This document shows positions 96-33,675 of a stretch of DNA of 64,000 nucleotides, piece after piece. The notes beneath the pieces are model-generated. The model saw nothing but the letters and a program-made list of their open reading frames with translations. It was not told the DNA's origin and ran no database searches. Source of the DNA: Sphaerisporangium corydalis. Its GTDB lineage: Bacteria > Actinomycetota > Actinomycetes > Streptosporangiales > Streptosporangiaceae. Made by a program: the position numbers and the translations under genes. The stretch lies in assembly GCF_025506355.1 (NCBI RefSeq), contig NZ_JANZYP010000001.1, positions 31,932-95,931 of the forward strand, given 5' to 3'. Numbering within the stretch: position 1 is the stretch's first letter; every line of letters begins with the position of its first letter.

Positions 96-1406
96 TCACC
101 GCAGGGGCGCCGCCTCGACGCGGTGCGCGGCGAGGTGGGCGAGCACGGCCTGGTTGGCCTCCCAGCCGTCGGGGAACTTCACCGGCACGTTGAGCCGCAC
201 CGGTTCGGCGGACGGGTGGGCGTCCAGCAGCTCGGGGATCCCGGCACGCGCGACGACGACGCAGGCGTGCCGGTGGCGCGAGGTGAGCACGCACAGCCGC
301 CCCGACTCCAGGTGGAAGGCCGTGGCGTCCCTGCGCCCCGACAGGGGGTGCAGGATGATCGTCACGTCGTACTCCCGGCCCTGCAACCGGTTGGCCGTGT
401 CGACGGTCACCCCCTCCGGCACCCCGGCGGCCTGGATCGCGGCCACCTGGTCGCGGTGCGCCGCGCCGATCGCGACGCGGTCGGCGGTGACGGGGTGCTC
501 GCCGCGCTCGGAGTGCGCGACCGGCGCCCGCTGGAGCAGCCGGGCCGCGAGCACGGCCACGGCTTGGACGGCCTCGGCGTCGGTGCGCACCGTGTGCCGG
601 TTCGGCAGCTCGTACAGCGCCCACCCCGAAACCGCCGCCTCCTCCAGGGCGCGGTCGTAGGCCGTGCGCATGCCGCCCGCCGCGAACGACAGGCGCCGCT
701 CGCCGGGCAGGGTGCCGGCCCGGAACCCGGTGTAGGGGTAGAACGCCTCCGACACCACCGGCGCGGCCGAGGCGGGCAGCCGCCAGGAGACCGGGAGCCG
801 GTGGACCGGGAGGCCGGGGTTGTGGCGCAGCAGCACCGCCACCGCGCTCTGCAGCGGGTCCCACGACAGGCCCGCCCAGCGGTCGCCGTCCACGATCGAG
901 AACGGGTCGAGCTGGCCGGGGTCCCCGACGAACAGGGCCCGGTCGAACAGCCCGGCGATGCGCAGCAGCTTGTCCGACCGCATCTGGTAGGCCTCGTCCA
1001 CGATGGCCCACGGCCAGGTGCGGTCGCCGGCCCAGGCCCACTTGTCGGCGGTGGCGACCACCACGGCCGGGTCGCCCAGGTCGGGCAGCTTGGTGCCGAT
1101 GCTCGCCTTGCCCATCACGCGGCGCGGCACCGAGTAGTCGGCGGCCGACAGCCGCCCGAGCGGCACGCCGGGGTGCTCGGCGGCCATCCGGACGATCAGG
1201 TCGTCCACCTGCTCGTTCGTCTGAGCGATGATCATCAGGGGTTCGCCGGTGGCGGCGAGGTGCCCGGCGGCCCGCACCACCAGGGTGGACTTGCCCGCGC
1301 CAGGCGGTGAGTCGACGACCACGCCGCGGTGGTCCGGCAGGTCGGCCAGGACCGCCTCCACGACCGCCGCCGCGTCGCGCGCGGTAGCGGGCTCCGTAAC
1401 GGTCAC
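96..1406 (-). CDS. Compact superfamily 1 DNA/RNA helicase, last gene of a nuclease-helicase cassette
   Basis: The 436-aa protein carries a full set of SF1 helicase motifs. Walker A is PPGAGKST (about residues 34-41), motif II is VDEAY (136-140), and motif III is VGDPGQLDP (about 160-168). A WRLP block follows, then motif V TANRLQGREYD (337-347) and motif VI LTSRHRHACVVVAR (374-387). The arrangement is closest to the UPF1/Dna2-like SF1B branch, without large accessory domains. The GTG start was chosen because it overlaps the stop of the upstream gene (GTGA), implying translational coupling. The 23 codons upstream of it lie inside the neighbour. It probably unwinds or translocates on nucleic acid powered by ATP. 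Its place behind a RecB/Cas4-type nuclease suggests a joint DNA-end-processing complex; that role is inference. Confidence 0.85.
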   Translation of the reverse strand: MTVTEPATARDAAAVVEAVLADLPDHRGVVVDSPPGAGKSTLVVRAAGHLAATGEPLMIIAQTNEQVDDLIVRMAAEHPGVPLGRLSAADYSVPRRVMGKASIGTKLPDLGDPAVVVATADKWAWAGDRTWPWAIVDEAYQMRSDKLLRIAGLFDRALFVGDPGQLDPFSIVDGDRWAGLSWDPLQSAVAVLLRHNPGLPVHRLPVSWRLPASAAPVVSEAFYPYTGFRAGTLPGERRLSFAAGGMRTAYDRALEEAAVSGWALYELPNRHTVRTDAEAVQAVAVLAARLLQRAPVAHSERGEHPVTADRVAIGAAHRDQVAAIQAAGVPEGVTVDTANRLQGREYDVTIILHPLSGRRDATAFHLESGRLCVLTSRHRHACVVVARAGIPELLDAHPSAEPVRLNVPVKFPDGWEANQAVLAHLAAHRVEAAPLR

Positions 1407-2875
1407 GCCCACTCCTCCTCGTCCGGTTCCTCCACGGCGGGGACGTGCTCGGGCGGCGGCCCGCCGTGCGTCCACGGGGTGTCCTCAGGGGCGGGCAGGC
1501 TCGCCGGCGGCTGGTACTCGTCGGTCAGGGCGGCGTAGCACACCCGCTCGCCGACCTCGGGCACCGAGCCGGGGCTGGCGGTCCTGCCGCGCCCCATCCC
1601 CTTGACGATCTTCAGGGTGACGTGCCCGCCGGTGATCTCGACGACCTCGGCCTGCTGGCCGCGCCGTTCGGGCGTGCCGAGCCGGGTCCCGGCCGCCAGC
1701 CGCACGGGGTCGGAGGTACGCACGGTGAGCAGCGGGCGCAGCTTGCGTCCCCGGCCCTCGCCCTCGGCGTGGTCGGGGTCGGCGGCCAGCACCGTGCCGG
1801 TGAACGCCTCGCCGGTGAGCCGGTGGCCCGCCATGACCAGCGGGTCGTCGTAGGCCCGCTGCGCGTCGTAGGAGGCCTGCGCCCGTTCCATGCGGGCCAG
1901 CCGCGACGCCGCGCCGACCGCGCCGTCCCGTTTGGGCTGCGGCGGGCCGCCCTCGGCGAGCTGGGCCGCGAAGCCGGTGAACGACGCGCGGTCACCCTCC
2001 CACCGCGCCGCGACGCCCGGCCCGGCGGGCAGCGCGCCGAGCAGGCCGACCGCCCGCCACATCAGCCGCCACGTCGGTTCGAGCTGCGAGCGCACCGCCT
2101 CGCCGACCCGCGCCGCCGCGCGGTCGGACCGGGTCTCCGCGTACGCCCGGATGGCGGGCGCCAGGACCTCGCTGTCGAAACCCGGGTCGGTGGCCGGCCC
2201 GGCGGGCGGCCAGACCAGCGGGTCCTCCGCCTCCCTGGCCGCCTCCGCCCCCGTCATGCCCGGAGGCGGGTCGATCCACCCCATCAGGGACGCGAGGTTG
2301 GCGTCCTCCAGCGCGCTCTGGCCGGTGGCCCAGTGCAGCGACATCGCCTCGGTGGCCGCGAGCAGCGACGCCGACCCGGGGTACTGCGCCCGCTGGGCCA
2401 GGAAGGTGAGCCACCGGCCCAGCACCGGCACCGACGGGTGCACCGCGTACTCGCCCTCGGCCCGGCGGAACCGGGTCGAGCGGCCGAGCAACTGGACGAA
2501 CGCGACGGCGCTCCGGTTGGGGACGATGACCTGCGGCGCGTCGACGCACCGCTCGAACGGCTCGGCGCCGCGCCGCTCGACCGTCTCGGTCGCCTTCTGC
2601 AGGCCCTCGATGTAGGGCAGCAGGATCTCGGCCAGCTCGGCGGCGAAGGCGAACCGCAGGTCGCGGTCGCGCGGCTGCGGCACCACCAGCAGCCGGGGAC
2701 GGGCGGGGTCGGTGCCCGCCATCGCGGCCAGCGGCGCCGCGGCCTCGCCCGCCAGCCTCAGCGGGATCAAGACCATCGGGCGTTCCGACAGGTGGCAGTG
2801 GCGCACGGTCGCCAGCCGCTGCGCGGCGCCGGTGTGCACCGCCCGCAGGCGCGCGAGCGCGGCGAGCGTGCTCAC
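1403..2875 (-). CDS. Unknown protein of the nuclease-helicase cassette
   Basis: I do not recognise this 490-aa protein. It is soluble, mostly alpha-helical by composition, rich in Ala/Arg/Glu, with no signal peptide, membrane segment or obvious catalytic motif. The N-terminal third has a hydrophobic patch (RPMVLIPLRLAG) and a PRLLVVPQPRDRD segment. The C-terminal quarter (about 385-460) looks like a beta-rich OB-like or SH3-like region (LLTVRTSDPVRLAAGTRLG, HVTLKIVKGMGRG). The tail is acidic and ends in EEEWA. The GTG start overlaps the stop of a 33-codon mini-ORF, and its own stop overlaps the helicase start. It is therefore likely made stoichiometrically with the helicase and may be a structural or DNA-binding subunit; that is inference. 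Confidence 0.75.
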   Translation of the reverse strand: MSTLAALARLRAVHTGAAQRLATVRHCHLSERPMVLIPLRLAGEAAAPLAAMAGTDPARPRLLVVPQPRDRDLRFAFAAELAEILLPYIEGLQKATETVERRGAEPFERCVDAPQVIVPNRSAVAFVQLLGRSTRFRRAEGEYAVHPSVPVLGRWLTFLAQRAQYPGSASLLAATEAMSLHWATGQSALEDANLASLMGWIDPPPGMTGAEAAREAEDPLVWPPAGPATDPGFDSEVLAPAIRAYAETRSDRAAARVGEAVRSQLEPTWRLMWRAVGLLGALPAGPGVAARWEGDRASFTGFAAQLAEGGPPQPKRDGAVGAASRLARMERAQASYDAQRAYDDPLVMAGHRLTGEAFTGTVLAADPDHAEGEGRGRKLRPLLTVRTSDPVRLAAGTRLGTPERRGQQAEVVEITGGHVTLKIVKGMGRGRTASPGSVPEVGERVCYAALTDEYQPPASLPAPEDTPWTHGGPPPEHVPAVEEPDEEEWA

Positions 2876-2973
2876 GCCGCCCCCGCGGGCGACGGCGGGC
2901 CGAGACCCGCAGGCGACGGCCCGCCGGTCCCTGTGAGTGGCGGCCCGCCGGGGCCCGCGTCCGGCGGGGTCAC
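2872..2973 (-). CDS. Possible 33-aa Pro/Gly-rich bridging mini-ORF
   Basis: This short ORF begins with a GTG that overlaps the nuclease stop (GTGA). It ends with a TGA that overlaps the GTG of the 490-aa gene (again GTGA). It encodes 33 residues dominated by Pro, Gly and Ala, with repeats of the type GGPSPAG / GPPSPAG. It may be a real small protein, or only a device that keeps ribosomes moving across the 94-nt spacer so that the next gene is translationally coupled. No independent Shine-Dalgarno sequence is obvious. Confidence 0.4.
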   Translation of the reverse strand: MTPPDAGPGGPPLTGTGGPSPAGLGPPSPAGAA

Positions 2974-4079
2974 GAGACCTCCGCGTACATGCGGTCGGCG
3001 AGGCGGAGCAGGCGGGCGATCTCCTCCTGCCCCTCGTCGGGGATGAGCGACCCGTCGGCCAGCCCGAGCGCCTCGGCGACCGTCGCCACCCCGCCGAGCG
3101 CGTCGCGCACCTGCCGGCCCAGCAGGTCGGTCGACCCCTCGGACGCGGCCTCGTCGCGGCAGAAGAAGCACAGGTCGCACGTCGACAGGCAGTCGGGCGC
3201 GTACCGGGCGCCGACCCCGCGCACCGCCTCGCGCAGGTCGGCCACCGGGCGGGTCGGCGCGCCGCCGGCGTCCGGCACCAGGTCGAAGGTCAGGCCGGGC
3301 TCCAGCGCGTCCACGATCGCGCCGACCCGGGTCATGCGGGCCAGCTGCCTCCTGAGCACGGCCAGCTCCCTGCGCACGTCGACCAGCGTCGCCGCCGGCC
3401 GGTTGGCGAAGTTCTCCGGGCACACCAGGACGACGTCGTGCGACACCCGCGCGGGGTCGTGGCCCAGTTCCTCCAGCGTGTCGCGCAACGCCAGCACGTA
3501 CACGGCGGCCTGGCGGGCCGCCGCCGCGACCTTGTCCGGCTCGGCCTGCCCGTCGATGACGGAGAACGACTTGATCTCCACGATGTGGAACCGGCCGCCC
3601 AGCCGGAACGCCACCACGTCCGGTTCGAGGTAGGAGGTGTGGCCGGCGATGTCCAGCCGCAGCAGCGGGTGGTCGTACAGCGTCCCGGCGTCGTCGCCGT
3701 CGCGGGCCGCCCGGTCCAGTAGCCGGCGGGTGTGGGAGTGGCGGAGGTGCGCCGACGGGTTGCCGCCGACGTCCCCGAGGTCGGTGTAGGAGGCCAGCGG
3801 GATCGGCAGGCCGAGGATCTCGCGCAGCAGCCTCAGCAGCTCCGCGCACCCGCTCTCCTTCACCAGCGCCTCGAACACGTTCCCCCGGGTGATGGCGAAC
3901 GGCGACTGGCCGAACGGGGCCGGGAACCCCAGGTGGGTGGCGGTGGCGTCCTTGTCGATCCCGGCCGCGTCCAGCACCGCGCGGCGGGCGCACCCGGGGT
4001 TGGCCGCCAGCGCGGCGATCGCCCGCGCGTCGTGGGGGCGCGGCGGCACCGGGCCGCGCAGTTCGTCGAGTCGGTCCAC
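2970..4079 (-). CDS. PD-(D/E)XK nuclease with probable Fe-S cluster (RecB/Cas4/Dna2-like)
   Basis: The 369-aa protein shows the nuclease core as D154 in YLEPDVVAF, E168-x-K170 in HIVEIKSF, and Q190 in ARQAAVYVLAL, the hallmark QxxxY helix of RecB-like nucleases. Cysteines occur at C30 (NPGCARRAV) and as a C-terminal cluster C297, C301, C304, C307 (DCLSTCDLCFFC). One N-terminal plus three C-terminal Cys is the 4Fe-4S staple pattern of Cas4, AddB and Dna2. The usual motif-I His after the first helix is not evident; the equivalent stretch reads RGNVFEALV. The GTG start lies 1 nt after the upstream stop. It likely cuts or trims ssDNA ends, perhaps with the helicase encoded two genes downstream. 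Nuclease fold is confident from motifs, substrate is inferred. Confidence 0.8.
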   Translation of the reverse strand: MDRLDELRGPVPPRPHDARAIAALAANPGCARRAVLDAAGIDKDATATHLGFPAPFGQSPFAITRGNVFEALVKESGCAELLRLLREILGLPIPLASYTDLGDVGGNPSAHLRHSHTRRLLDRAARDGDDAGTLYDHPLLRLDIAGHTSYLEPDVVAFRLGGRFHIVEIKSFSVIDGQAEPDKVAAAARQAAVYVLALRDTLEELGHDPARVSHDVVLVCPENFANRPAATLVDVRRELAVLRRQLARMTRVGAIVDALEPGLTFDLVPDAGGAPTRPVADLREAVRGVGARYAPDCLSTCDLCFFCRDEAASEGSTDLLGRQVRDALGGVATVAEALGLADGSLIPDEGQEEIARLLRLADRMYAEVS

Positions 4080-4080
4080 C

Positions 4081-4944
4081 TCACGCCTCTCTTCTGGCCA
4101 GGGTCAGCATCGCGCCGCCGAACAGCCGCTCGGGGTCGCGAAGCCGGTCGCGGGCGCGACCGGCGATCTCCGCGCGTGCCGTGGCGTCGGCGTCGGCGTG
4201 CACCGCCAGCTCGGCGCGGGCCGCCTTCACCACCACGGCCGGGTCGGGCACGGCGAACCCGGGCACCACGCCGGGACCCGCGCCCCTGACCGCGGCGCCC
4301 GCACCGGGCGTCCCGGTCCCGTACGGCGCGGCGCCGGGGATGTTCTGCGCCAGCCGGGCCAGCAGCCGCTGGGCGCCGGGCGGGGCCTGCTCGGCGGGCT
4401 CGTCCAGCCGCAGCAGGTGCTCGGCCACGCGGATGGCGGTGGTGAGGAAGTCGACGCGGGGGCTCAGCGGGCCGATGACCCGCTTCTCCAGCGGCCACGT
4501 GCTCACCGCGAGCAGTCCCCGCGACGCCGACAGGCGGTCGGTGAGCGCGGCGCACAGGTAGTACGGCCGGGCGAAGGGCGAGGTCCTGAACGAGCGTTCC
4601 TCGTCGCGGCGCAGGCTCGTGAGCTGCGGGCCCCTGAGCGAGCCCGCGCGCAGGGCGCCGTGCACCGCCACGATCATCTTCCCGGCGGCGGGCACGCCGA
4701 GCAGCGTGAGCGCCTGGTGGACCTGCTCGCGGACCGGGAGCAGCGACCCCGGCGGCTCGTCGGGGGCCGCCTCGTCGGGGGTGGGCTCGTGGGCGGCCAG
4801 CGCCTGGTCCCAGGCCCGCTCGGCCCCGCGCAGCTCGGCGCGCAACGACCTGGCGAGCGCGCCCTCGCGGGCCCGGACGGCCCGGCGGATCTCGCTCCGG
4901 AGCGTGTTGATCCGCTCCTCGAGATCGTCCAGCGATTCACTCAC
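4081..4944 (-). CDS. Unknown coiled-coil protein, first gene of the nuclease-helicase cassette
   Basis: This is a 287-aa protein I cannot assign to a family. Residues about 1-55 form a charged heptad-like helix (DDLEERINTLRSEIRRAVRA) compatible with a coiled coil. A Pro/Glu/Asp-rich linker follows, then a compact alpha-helical middle with PVREQVHQALTLLG and RDEERSFRTSPFARPYYLC. A Gly/Pro-rich spacer near 195-215 leads into a C-terminal helical region. No signal peptide or membrane span is present. The middle part has the feel of a DNA-binding helical domain, which is a guess. The GTG start is 6 nt downstream of a TACGCT -10-like box and has no Shine-Dalgarno, so the operon may start with a leaderless transcript. 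It ends 1 nt before the nuclease gene. Confidence 0.75.
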   Translation of the reverse strand: MSESLDDLEERINTLRSEIRRAVRAREGALARSLRAELRGAERAWDQALAAHEPTPDEAAPDEPPGSLLPVREQVHQALTLLGVPAAGKMIVAVHGALRAGSLRGPQLTSLRRDEERSFRTSPFARPYYLCAALTDRLSASRGLLAVSTWPLEKRVIGPLSPRVDFLTTAIRVAEHLLRLDEPAEQAPPGAQRLLARLAQNIPGAAPYGTGTPGAGAAVRGAGPGVVPGFAVPDPAVVVKAARAELAVHADADATARAEIAGRARDRLRDPERLFGGAMLTLARREA

Positions 4945-5024: not shown

Positions 5025-6785
5025 TCAGCTCAGGGGGCGGAAGTAGGTGCCGGGGCGGTCGCGGCCCATCACGCCGCCGACGCAGCGGTAGATCCGGACG
5101 CCCTCCTTGAACGCCTCGGGGGTCGGCGGCAGCACCGAGACCATCCACTTGGCCGGGGCGATCGCCTTGGCCGCGCCGTACCTCGACTGGATGAGCACCT
5201 GCATCGAGCACAGCTTCTTCACCAGAGGGTGCCCCTCCAGGTCCTGCAGGTCGTAGGTGATCGCGTCCACCGGCATCGGGGCCACGGCGAAGGTCTCCCA
5301 CGAATGGGTCTCCTCGCAGCCGCGCCGCTTGACCGACACCGAGCCCGTGATCGCCACGATGCCCCCCCAGCACTCCGCCTCCCGCCCGCAGGCGGCGTTC
5401 GCGCCGGCGACGGCCGCCGCCGGGCAGTTCACGGTGGTGGTCGCGACCGTGCCGGGGGAGGAGGACGACGGGGCCGCCGACACCGGACCGGCCGTACCGG
5501 TCACCGTCCGGCCCGGACCTGAGGAGACCTGGCCGTCCCCGGGCGCGAGCCTCTCGTGCAGCATGATCGCCGTCCCGGCCGCCAGGAGCAGGGCGAACAC
5601 GCCCGCCACCGCGACGTACCGCCCGGCATGCGCGTACTGCTTCGGCGAGGAGGGCGGGCGGGTCTCCCACGCGTCGCGGCCGCCCGGCCCGGCCGGCTCA
5701 GGGCCGGCACCGGGACCTCCCCGCCGGTCACGCCCGCCGTGGGTGGCCGCCCCGTCCCGGGAACCCGTCCCCGGCGCGGACTGGGACGGCGCCCCCGAAT
5801 AGGACGTGGCCGGACGAGGCGGCCTGGACGGGGCCGATCCAGGTCGCGACGGGTCGTACGGGGACGGTCCTGAGGGTCCGGAGTGGGGGGCGCCGGGACG
5901 CGAGGGTCCCTGGCCGGGGGCCATGGGGTGCGGCGCGGGGGCCGGGCGGGCGCCGGAGAGGACGTGCGCGGGGACCGCCGACAGCGCGTCCCGCAGCGCG
6001 GCGGCCGAGGGGACCCGCTCGCGCGGGTCGGTGGCCAGCCCGGCGCGCAGGACGGCGGTCAGCTCCGGCGGCACCCCGGGGATCTCCGGCACCGGCCGCC
6101 GGTGCAACGCCATGATGACCGCGATGTTGACCACGCCGGACTCGGGGAAGCGCGGCGGACGGCCGTTGAGCAGCGCGTACAGCGTCGCCGCCAGCGAGTA
6201 CACGTCGCCCGCCGGGCTCGGCTCGGCCAGCTCGAACGCCTCGGGCGGCCCGAACGCCGGCGTGAGCGAGTCGCGGGTGACCGACATGTCGCTGTCGGCC
6301 TGCGCGGTCATGGCCAGCCCGAAGTCCGACAGGGCCACCATCCCGTATCCGTTGACCAGGATGTTGGCGGGTTTGACGTCGCGGTGCAGCACGCCCGCCG
6401 CGTGGGCCGCCGCCAGCGCGTCGGCGACGCGCACGCCGATGTCGCGCACCTCGCGCGGGCTGAACGGGCCCTCCTCGCGCAGCCGGTCGGCCAGCGAGCC
6501 GCCAGGGCACAGCTCCAGCACCATGTACGGCCGGCCGTCGGCGAGCACCCCGGCGTCGTAGACGTCGGCCACGTGCGGGTGGCCGGACAGGGCGCCGGCC
6601 GAGGTGACCTCCCGCATGAACCGCCGCCGGTCGCGCTCGCTGACCAGAACGCGGTTGTCGACCTTGAGGGCGACCTCACGGCGCACGGCGAGCTGCCGGG
6701 CGCGGTACACCACGCCGAACCCGCCCTGCCCGAGGATGCCGAGCACCTCGTAGCCCGGCACATCGGGCGCCCCAGGCTCGCTCAC
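5025..6785 (-). CDS. Transmembrane Ser/Thr protein kinase (PknB/Hanks type)
   Basis: The 586-aa protein has an N-terminal kinase domain (about 11-270). It shows the glycine loop GQGGFGVVY, K41 in VALK, the catalytic loop HRDVKPAN (134-141), the DFG motif (154-156) and an activation loop with Ser/Thr residues near SVTRDSLTPAFG. A Pro/Ser-rich juxtamembrane linker (280-385) leads to one membrane helix (about 390-409). A C-terminal extracellular domain of about 175 residues with six cysteines probably forms three disulfides. There are no PASTA repeats, so the sensed ligand is not cell-wall muropeptide by that route. The GTG start is preceded by GGAGG. The gene is divergent from a TetR gene and lies 80 bp upstream of the nuclease-helicase cassette; functional linkage is unproven. 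Confidence 0.9.
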   Translation of the reverse strand: MSEPGAPDVPGYEVLGILGQGGFGVVYRARQLAVRREVALKVDNRVLVSERDRRRFMREVTSAGALSGHPHVADVYDAGVLADGRPYMVLELCPGGSLADRLREEGPFSPREVRDIGVRVADALAAAHAAGVLHRDVKPANILVNGYGMVALSDFGLAMTAQADSDMSVTRDSLTPAFGPPEAFELAEPSPAGDVYSLAATLYALLNGRPPRFPESGVVNIAVIMALHRRPVPEIPGVPPELTAVLRAGLATDPRERVPSAAALRDALSAVPAHVLSGARPAPAPHPMAPGQGPSRPGAPHSGPSGPSPYDPSRPGSAPSRPPRPATSYSGAPSQSAPGTGSRDGAATHGGRDRRGGPGAGPEPAGPGGRDAWETRPPSSPKQYAHAGRYVAVAGVFALLLAAGTAIMLHERLAPGDGQVSSGPGRTVTGTAGPVSAAPSSSSPGTVATTTVNCPAAAVAGANAACGREAECWGGIVAITGSVSVKRRGCEETHSWETFAVAPMPVDAITYDLQDLEGHPLVKKLCSMQVLIQSRYGAAKAIAPAKWMVSVLPPTPEAFKEGVRIYRCVGGVMGRDRPGTYFRPLS

Positions 6786-33308: not shown

Positions 33309-33435
33309 GGAGCCCGGGCATACGCGGATGAACCGGGCAAAGCCGCAGGTCAGGGTAAGACCCGGCAAAACCGGAGGATAGGGGTAGCCCCTTACGTGGG
33401 GCGAGAAGGTACCATTGGCGCAAGGCTTATGACCC

Positions 33436-33675
33436 TGTGCGGGAGAGTCCAGGGCACGGGCCGGCGCCGCGCTCCACGTGGCGCCGGTGAGTGACCCCGG
33501 CGCCGAAGGAGCAACCTCCCCGGAATCTCTCAGGCCCACGTACCGCACGGGTGAGGCGACTCTGGAAAGTAGACGTGCCCGCCAGGCGTGTCTCACCGAC
33601 GGTGCAAATCCCCCGTACTGGGATGAAGCTCTCAGGTCGCGACGAGAAGGTCGCGCTGACAGAGGGGGAGACCCG
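33436..33675 (+). promoter_or_regulatory. Tandem glycine riboswitch
   Basis: Aptamer 1 (about 33436-33569) has GGGAGAGTCC, GCGCCGAAGGAGCAA, CCGGAATCTCTCAGGC and GACTCTGGAAAG. Aptamer 2 (about 33577-33675) has CACCGACGGTGCAAATCCCC, GAAGCTCTCAGGT and CTGACAGAGGGGGAG. These are the signature blocks of the tandem gcvT-type glycine riboswitch. It lies 43 nt before gcvP. CCCCCTTC (33701-33708) next to the ribosome site could pair with either GAGGGGG of aptamer 2 or the AGGAGGG site, so control may act on translation. The on-switch direction is known for the family. Confidence 0.92.

Follow-up and report, generated by a model that had tools for sequence, protein, structure and literature searches.

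A set of four genes was analyzed in a stretch of 64,000 nucleotides (nt) from Sphaerisporangium corydalis (contig NZ_JANZYP010000001.1, positions 31,932 to 95,931 of the forward strand), and this whole stretch is called the window below. The genes, designated A, B, C, and D, lie co-directionally on the minus strand at window positions 96–4944, and protein homologues were found for each of them. As judged from sequence motifs and a structure model, B, C, and D probably constitute three chains of one nuclease–helicase, which has a domain order like that of Dna2 and is related to the TIGR03491 proteins (TM0106-type RecB-like nucleases). The gene set was unnamed in the databases searched and is present in many actinobacteria.

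An earlier note, made from the letters of the window, had proposed a split Dna2-like nuclease–helicase encoded by four minus-strand genes: a coiled-coil protein, a RecB/Cas4-type nuclease with one N-terminal cysteine and a C-terminal cysteine cluster, a protein of 490 amino acids (aa), and a compact superfamily 1 (SF1) helicase with complete motifs. All four genes were present, with a third-position guanine–cytosine content of 0.955–0.984 in frames A–D, which is of the coding type, and the features described for the four products were recovered. The note had also known of no named system with this gene set; A, B, and C gave no match above the cut-off in Pfam, NCBIfam, or PADLOC, and three of the four proteins (A, B, and C) are annotated as "hypothetical protein" and D as an AAA protein in the two Streptomyces plasmid RefSeq records in which annotation was seen. 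The four-gene set was not found in the literature searched, although it may still have been published.

Domain composition of B, C, and D

Gene B (2970–4079, minus strand; 369 aa) encodes, by motif, a RecB/Cas4-type PD-(D/E)XK nuclease. The residues of its motif E152/D154/E168-x-K170/Q190-x3-Y194 were kept in 161–167 of the 167 alignment rows (the window and 166 loci, some of them duplicates), the catalytic core EPD...EIKS occupying residues 152–171 (3567–3626, minus strand). The N-terminal Cys30 (codon at 3990–3992, minus strand) was kept in 166 of the 167 rows, the remaining row having X, and C297, C301, and C307 (residues 297–307; 3159–3191, minus strand) were each found in 167/167. One N-terminal and three C-terminal cysteines are the pattern of Cas4, and the four cysteines of B form a putative iron–sulfur (Fe-S) staple. 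B thus shares the PD-(D/E)XK and QxxxY motifs of the Cas4, AddB, and RecB nucleases, including E/D, ExK, and the four cysteines, whereas its C-terminal cysteine spacing is CxxxCxxxxxC and Pfam, like NCBIfam and PADLOC, returned no match. Two engineered proteins were the only PDB matches of the B profile and were taken as spurious.

Gene C (1403–2875, minus strand; 490 aa) had been described in the earlier note as having no recognizable fold, and this did not hold. A high-confidence structure model (predicted local distance difference test score, 92.6) placed a DEDD-exonuclease-like fold lacking the exo I acids at residues 30–294 (1994–2788, minus strand) and the stalk and β-barrel domain 1B of SF1B helicases at residues 316–453 (1517–1930, minus strand). 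The exo I residues of KOD are D141 and E143. In the structure comparison, residues 316–453 matched residues 10–142 of SMUBP2, and Dna2 ranked beside SMUBP2. C had no sequence match in Pfam, NCBIfam, PADLOC, or, by its profile, PDB, and no relative of it was detected in the phage records and viral contigs searched.

Gene D (96–1406, minus strand; 436 aa) encodes a compact SF1B helicase of the Upf1/SMUBP2/Dna2 branch. Its Walker A motif (SPPGAGKS, residues 33–40; 1287–1310, minus strand) contained G38 and K39 in all 136 rows of the alignment, and the residues checked in motifs I, II, III, and IV–VI were kept in 130–136 of these rows, with R203 in 123. The D profile matched SMUBP2 (E 3e-12), DNA2 (E 2e-11), and UPF1 (E 3e-7) in PDB, and residues 16–384 aligned with SMUBP2 195–609 (D 16–76 to 195–255; D 333–384 to 557–609). 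As Walker A begins at residue 33, D starts where the helicase core of SMUBP2 starts after 1B. By sequence, D is therefore an SF1B helicase nearest to SMUBP2 and DNA2 and without an N-terminal 1B domain.

D also matched the PLuB helicase-like protein NF040671 (PLuB_AAA; E 7e-12, 43.5 bits) and, weakly in PADLOC, Mokosh MkoA (E 1e-5, 21.6 bits), MkoC (6e-5), and mad8 (3e-4). PLuB_AAA and MkoA differ from D in being long proteins, and the best-aligned stretch lay in their C-terminal part. The PLuB system was absent from the literature searched.

SMUBP2, UPF1, and senataxin-type proteins act on RNA, and such proteins are among the best solved relatives of D. The set could thus be an RNA or R-loop enzyme, in which a Sen1/SMUBP2-like RNA helicase works with a nuclease partner. 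We consider this very unlikely, as B falls by motif among the RecB/Cas4-type DNA nucleases, and DNA2 outscored UPF1 for D.

Relation to Dna2 and to TIGR03491 proteins

Because C holds the Dna2/SMUBP2-type 1B barrel that is absent from D, the succession B, C, D reproduces the domain order of Dna2, which supports the split Dna2-like reading. The RecB-type nuclease of Dna2 with its Fe-S cysteines (PDB 5ean and 5eax) was matched in B by motif only, and its SF1B core with the 1B barrel and stalk was matched in C and D, between which it is divided here. Dna2 is one chain, whereas the present set uses three genes and does not place both activities in one polypeptide; no fused open reading frame joining the genes was found in the 168 loci fetched. 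C further differs from Dna2 in its additional exonuclease-like domain, and A is an optional member. The helicase core of IGHMBP2/SMUBP2, UPF1, and Sen1 likewise corresponds to the C barrel plus D, but here it is spread over two proteins and paired with a nuclease.

The TIGR03491 proteins have the same domain order as B-C-D, with an RNase H-type domain in mid-chain. Three such proteins of relatives (1128, 1152, and 1199 aa) comprised an N-terminal nuclease, detected by Pfam in two of the three, followed by RNase_H_2 and AAA_11/AAA_12. In contrast to the set, they are single chains, and their RNase H acids are absent from C. The NCBIfam search, which included the TIGR03491 model, gave no match to A, B, or C even at E 1. 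Domain-by-domain comparison using hhalign was diagonal: D aligned over its full length with the TIGR03491 helicase (E 2e-25), B with the nuclease part (P 4e-4), and the C-terminus of C with the stretch preceding the helicase (P 0.005). All remaining pairings, and the controls with reversed sequences, were at or above 0.08. The N-terminus of C against RNase H (0.09) was no better than the controls (0.08 to 0.6), and this likeness is a fold match only.

The two families were nearly exclusive across genomes. Among 394 genomes of the class, C was found in 70 and TIGR03491 in 137 (E below about 1e-6), and both in 3 against 24.3 expected (Fisher 8e-11, a value inflated by the relatedness of the genomes). 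At E 0.001, TIGR03491 was found in 154 of the 394 genomes and jointly with C in seven. In two genomes of another class (G677 and G840, the only two matches among its 198 genomes), B-C-D is directly followed by a TIGR03491-type nuclease/RNase H protein that lacks the helicase part (L287, 7059–8714, minus strand; L290, 4174–6198, plus strand), and the RNase H acids are kept in that of G677. At E 1e-3, none of the 168 other loci showed a TIGR03491-type gene. As B-C-D occurs in these two genomes together with a TIGR03491-type protein that itself has nuclease and RNase H parts, the idea that TIGR03491 simply split into B, C, and D, or that one replaced the other, is weakened.

We infer a complex of the three proteins that would work as follows. 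D would be an ATP-driven SF1B motor, on which the barrel and stalk of C may dock so that domain 1B is supplied in trans. The exonuclease-like domain of C, having lost the exo I acids, would probably serve as a guide for single-stranded DNA or as a scaffold, and B, closed by an Fe-S cluster, would cut the strand moved by D. DNA ends, flaps, or gaps may be the substrate, and A may act as an optional adaptor or sensor. If this is true, actinobacteria hold a Dna2-type nuclease–helicase in pieces; because 1B could then be removed by omitting one subunit, the set would offer a natural test of the role of domain 1B in UPF1/Dna2-type helicases.

Conservation and linkage of the gene set

At least 531 relatives of C were found in one genome scan. 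C was found in 70 of the 394 genomes of the class but, in a sample of 296 genomes from the whole phylum, in only 12. The 168 C-containing loci fetched included 160 distinct ones, of which 159 were counted after exclusion of one fragment; the 80 genome-contig loci were the best 80 of the 531, and the linkage numbers therefore favor close relatives. The loci comprised 79 of ABCD type, 56 of BCD type, 20 of BC type without a nearby D, and four cut on one side by a contig end.

The earlier note had suggested co-occurrence across actinobacteria as a check and had asked whether homologues of the two unassigned proteins lie mainly apart from the nuclease and helicase, which was not observed in the loci examined. 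B was beside C in 159/159 distinct loci, and D adjoined C in 136/159, with a gap of at most 300 nt in 130 of the 136. A was detected in 23 of the 394 genomes, and all 21 near full-length matches were beside C by coordinates; the two matches apart from C were a fragment and a match containing a stop. The B-C-D order recurred down to 33–34% identity (L043) and in another class, which argues that the arrangement is not due to chance.

In the 23 loci in which D is not adjacent to C, D was located elsewhere in the genome for 21, and the remaining two loci are cut off by the end of the contig. In a FastTree tree, which carried long-branch warnings, the BC loci fall into a single clade bearing Micromonospora names. 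All 19 of the named BC-locus genomes searched had D matches elsewhere: 15 had a single match of nearly full length, which in one genome contains an in-frame TAG, three had two adjoining pieces, and one had D in pieces. In two further genomes (G135 and G235), D was found 35,935 and 48,716 nt downstream, again on the same strand. Loss of D was thus ruled out as an explanation of these loci.

Two second copies were observed. One (L043; G034:C193) is a divergent A-B-C-D copy (about 34% identity), whose genome carries a standard copy as well; the D of the divergent copy lies in two frames and is followed by a UvrD/GajB-like helicase gene. The other (L044; G005:C72) is degraded, with fragments of C and D, and belongs to a genome congeneric with that of the window.

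Genomic contexts and possible roles

Many copies occupy fixed chromosomal positions. Genus g46 contained 38 B-C-D loci, which were largely syntenic and formed one clade; the neighbors in one of them (L166) were GGDEF/EAL, His-phosphatase, and TPR genes. The copies of Nonomuraea, Streptosporangium, and Actinomadura also had genus-typical neighbors. In the window, no known defense gene was recognized beside the set in the gene calls, which were not searched by family, and C was kept in 9 of 10 congeners of the window genome. This neighborhood and this retention point to a stable chromosomal function of the window copy.

Other copies adjoin defense genes. A pPIWI-RE island neighbors the copies of L209 (scanned) and L213 (which has the same gene clusters), and L209 also adjoins HmaA. 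L217 adjoins Wadjet II genes, and in L220 a Wadjet I JetA gene is about 4 kb from C. Type IV restriction genes were found at L067 and L069, type I methyltransferases at L068, and a PDC-S37/Hhe-like gene at L072. In Micromonospora, co-directional GmrSD (L068 and L072) or RhuM (L069) genes separate C from D, which corresponds to 3 of the 136 C-D pairs. The large C-D gaps without co-directional cargo were those of L047, with an α/β hydrolase gene on the opposite strand, L169, with the antisense TnpB-like frame described below, and L124 (366 nt); L047 and L028 are from the same genome.

On two Streptomyces plasmids, the operon, identified by matching gene positions around C, is followed by JetABCD, and one of the two has annotated SbcCD-like genes in front of it. 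According to Georjon et al. (PMC10482375), Lamassu and Wadjet show enrichment at the chromosome ends of Streptomyces. In L220, C lies some 15 kb inside an 8.87-Mb contig, counted from the contig start.

One shared cluster of SbcD-like genes is divergent from A in L217, L219, L220, L221, and L222 (L219 was scanned). An SMC-like gene follows the SbcD-like gene in L219 and L221 (L219 scanned), while the gene at this position in L217 is only of similar size. With L276 included, six loci carry an SbcD-like phosphoesterase, several with an SMC-like ATPase, and a larger module is possible.

The neighbors of hand-picked loci were compared using PADLOC at a threshold of 1e-15, with families rather than proteins counted. 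The 68 neighbors of 15 accessory loci, chosen after some neighbors had been seen, matched 154 families, versus 27 for the 68 neighbors of 15 core loci. The 25 of these 27 core-locus families that were displayed were mostly kinase-type models; PD-T4-6 is a kinase. The singly scanned neighbors of L070 and L212 had no PADLOC match. As to the enrichment near defense genes that the earlier note had put forward as a check, co-location with such genes was clear at some accessory loci and was not seen at the core loci scanned or at the window copy.

These contexts bear on three readings of the role. The set may be a dedicated anti-phage or anti-plasmid system everywhere, the window included, in which A would sense invader DNA and B-C-D would degrade it. 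The copies beside pPIWI-RE, HmaA, Wadjet I/II, methyltransferase, type IV restriction, and PDC-S37/Hhe genes, the GmrSD or RhuM insertions, and the PADLOC family counts agree with this; however, the copies of the window, g46, and several other genera lie among ordinary neighbors at genus-typical loci, C is retained by the congeners, and the accessory loci were picked with some neighbors known, so that we regard it as unlikely. A housekeeping enzyme for DNA ends or flaps in repair or replication, present in defense islands by hitch-hiking, would explain the syntenic clade of g46 and the near-exclusive occurrence of C and TIGR03491 proteins. The cargo genes between C and D, the plasmid copies, and the repeated Wadjet and SbcCD-like partners speak against it, and it too appears rather improbable.

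We tentatively prefer a reading that combines both roles: fixed chromosomal copies would serve genome upkeep and defense-island copies the attack on foreign DNA, which would make one enzyme common to repair and defense. A bolder version, possible but less likely than not, is a widespread and unnamed machine of actinobacteria whose helicase would take its 1B domain from a dead-exonuclease protein and be joined to an Fe-S nuclease. This modular DNA-end degrader would act against foreign DNA when combined with A and cargo (GmrSD, RhuM, SbcCD-like, or Wadjet genes) and, in some large genera, would have turned into an enzyme of core repair.

Gene A, gene junctions, and neighboring features

Gene A (4081–4944, minus strand; 287 aa) encodes a protein with an N-terminal coiled coil. 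Across Pfam, NCBIfam, and PADLOC, it gave only a sub-threshold match to DUF1192 (E 0.0037), and its profile matched mostly coiled-coil and designed chains in PDB (best E 0.012).

Junctions of 4 or 1 nt had been claimed throughout. A and B are indeed separated by 1 nt and C and D overlap by 4 nt, but B and C are separated by 94 nt: the B stop at 2970 and the C start at 2875 are in the frames that have homologues, and an alternative frame overlapping C (2872–3993) was ruled out because of its wrong codon bias. In relatives, with gene starts picked by script, a 4-nt overlap was found in 71/159 at B/C and in 71/136 at C/D. A TnpB-like frame, identified by eye, lies antisense between C and D in L169 (10809–11996, minus strand).

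Directly upstream of A, a Ser/Thr kinase-like gene was read by eye at 5025–6785 (minus strand), and five of the first 20 loci fetched (L027, L028, L029, L031, and L032) likewise have such a gene ahead of A. On the other side, past the window edge downstream of D, the gene calls are similar to those at the congener locus L046, where Pfam identified Ppx/GppA, MFS, and TetR genes. The sole Rfam match of the window at the gathering score was a glycine riboswitch aptamer (RF00504, 54.6 bits) at 33430–33555 on the plus strand.

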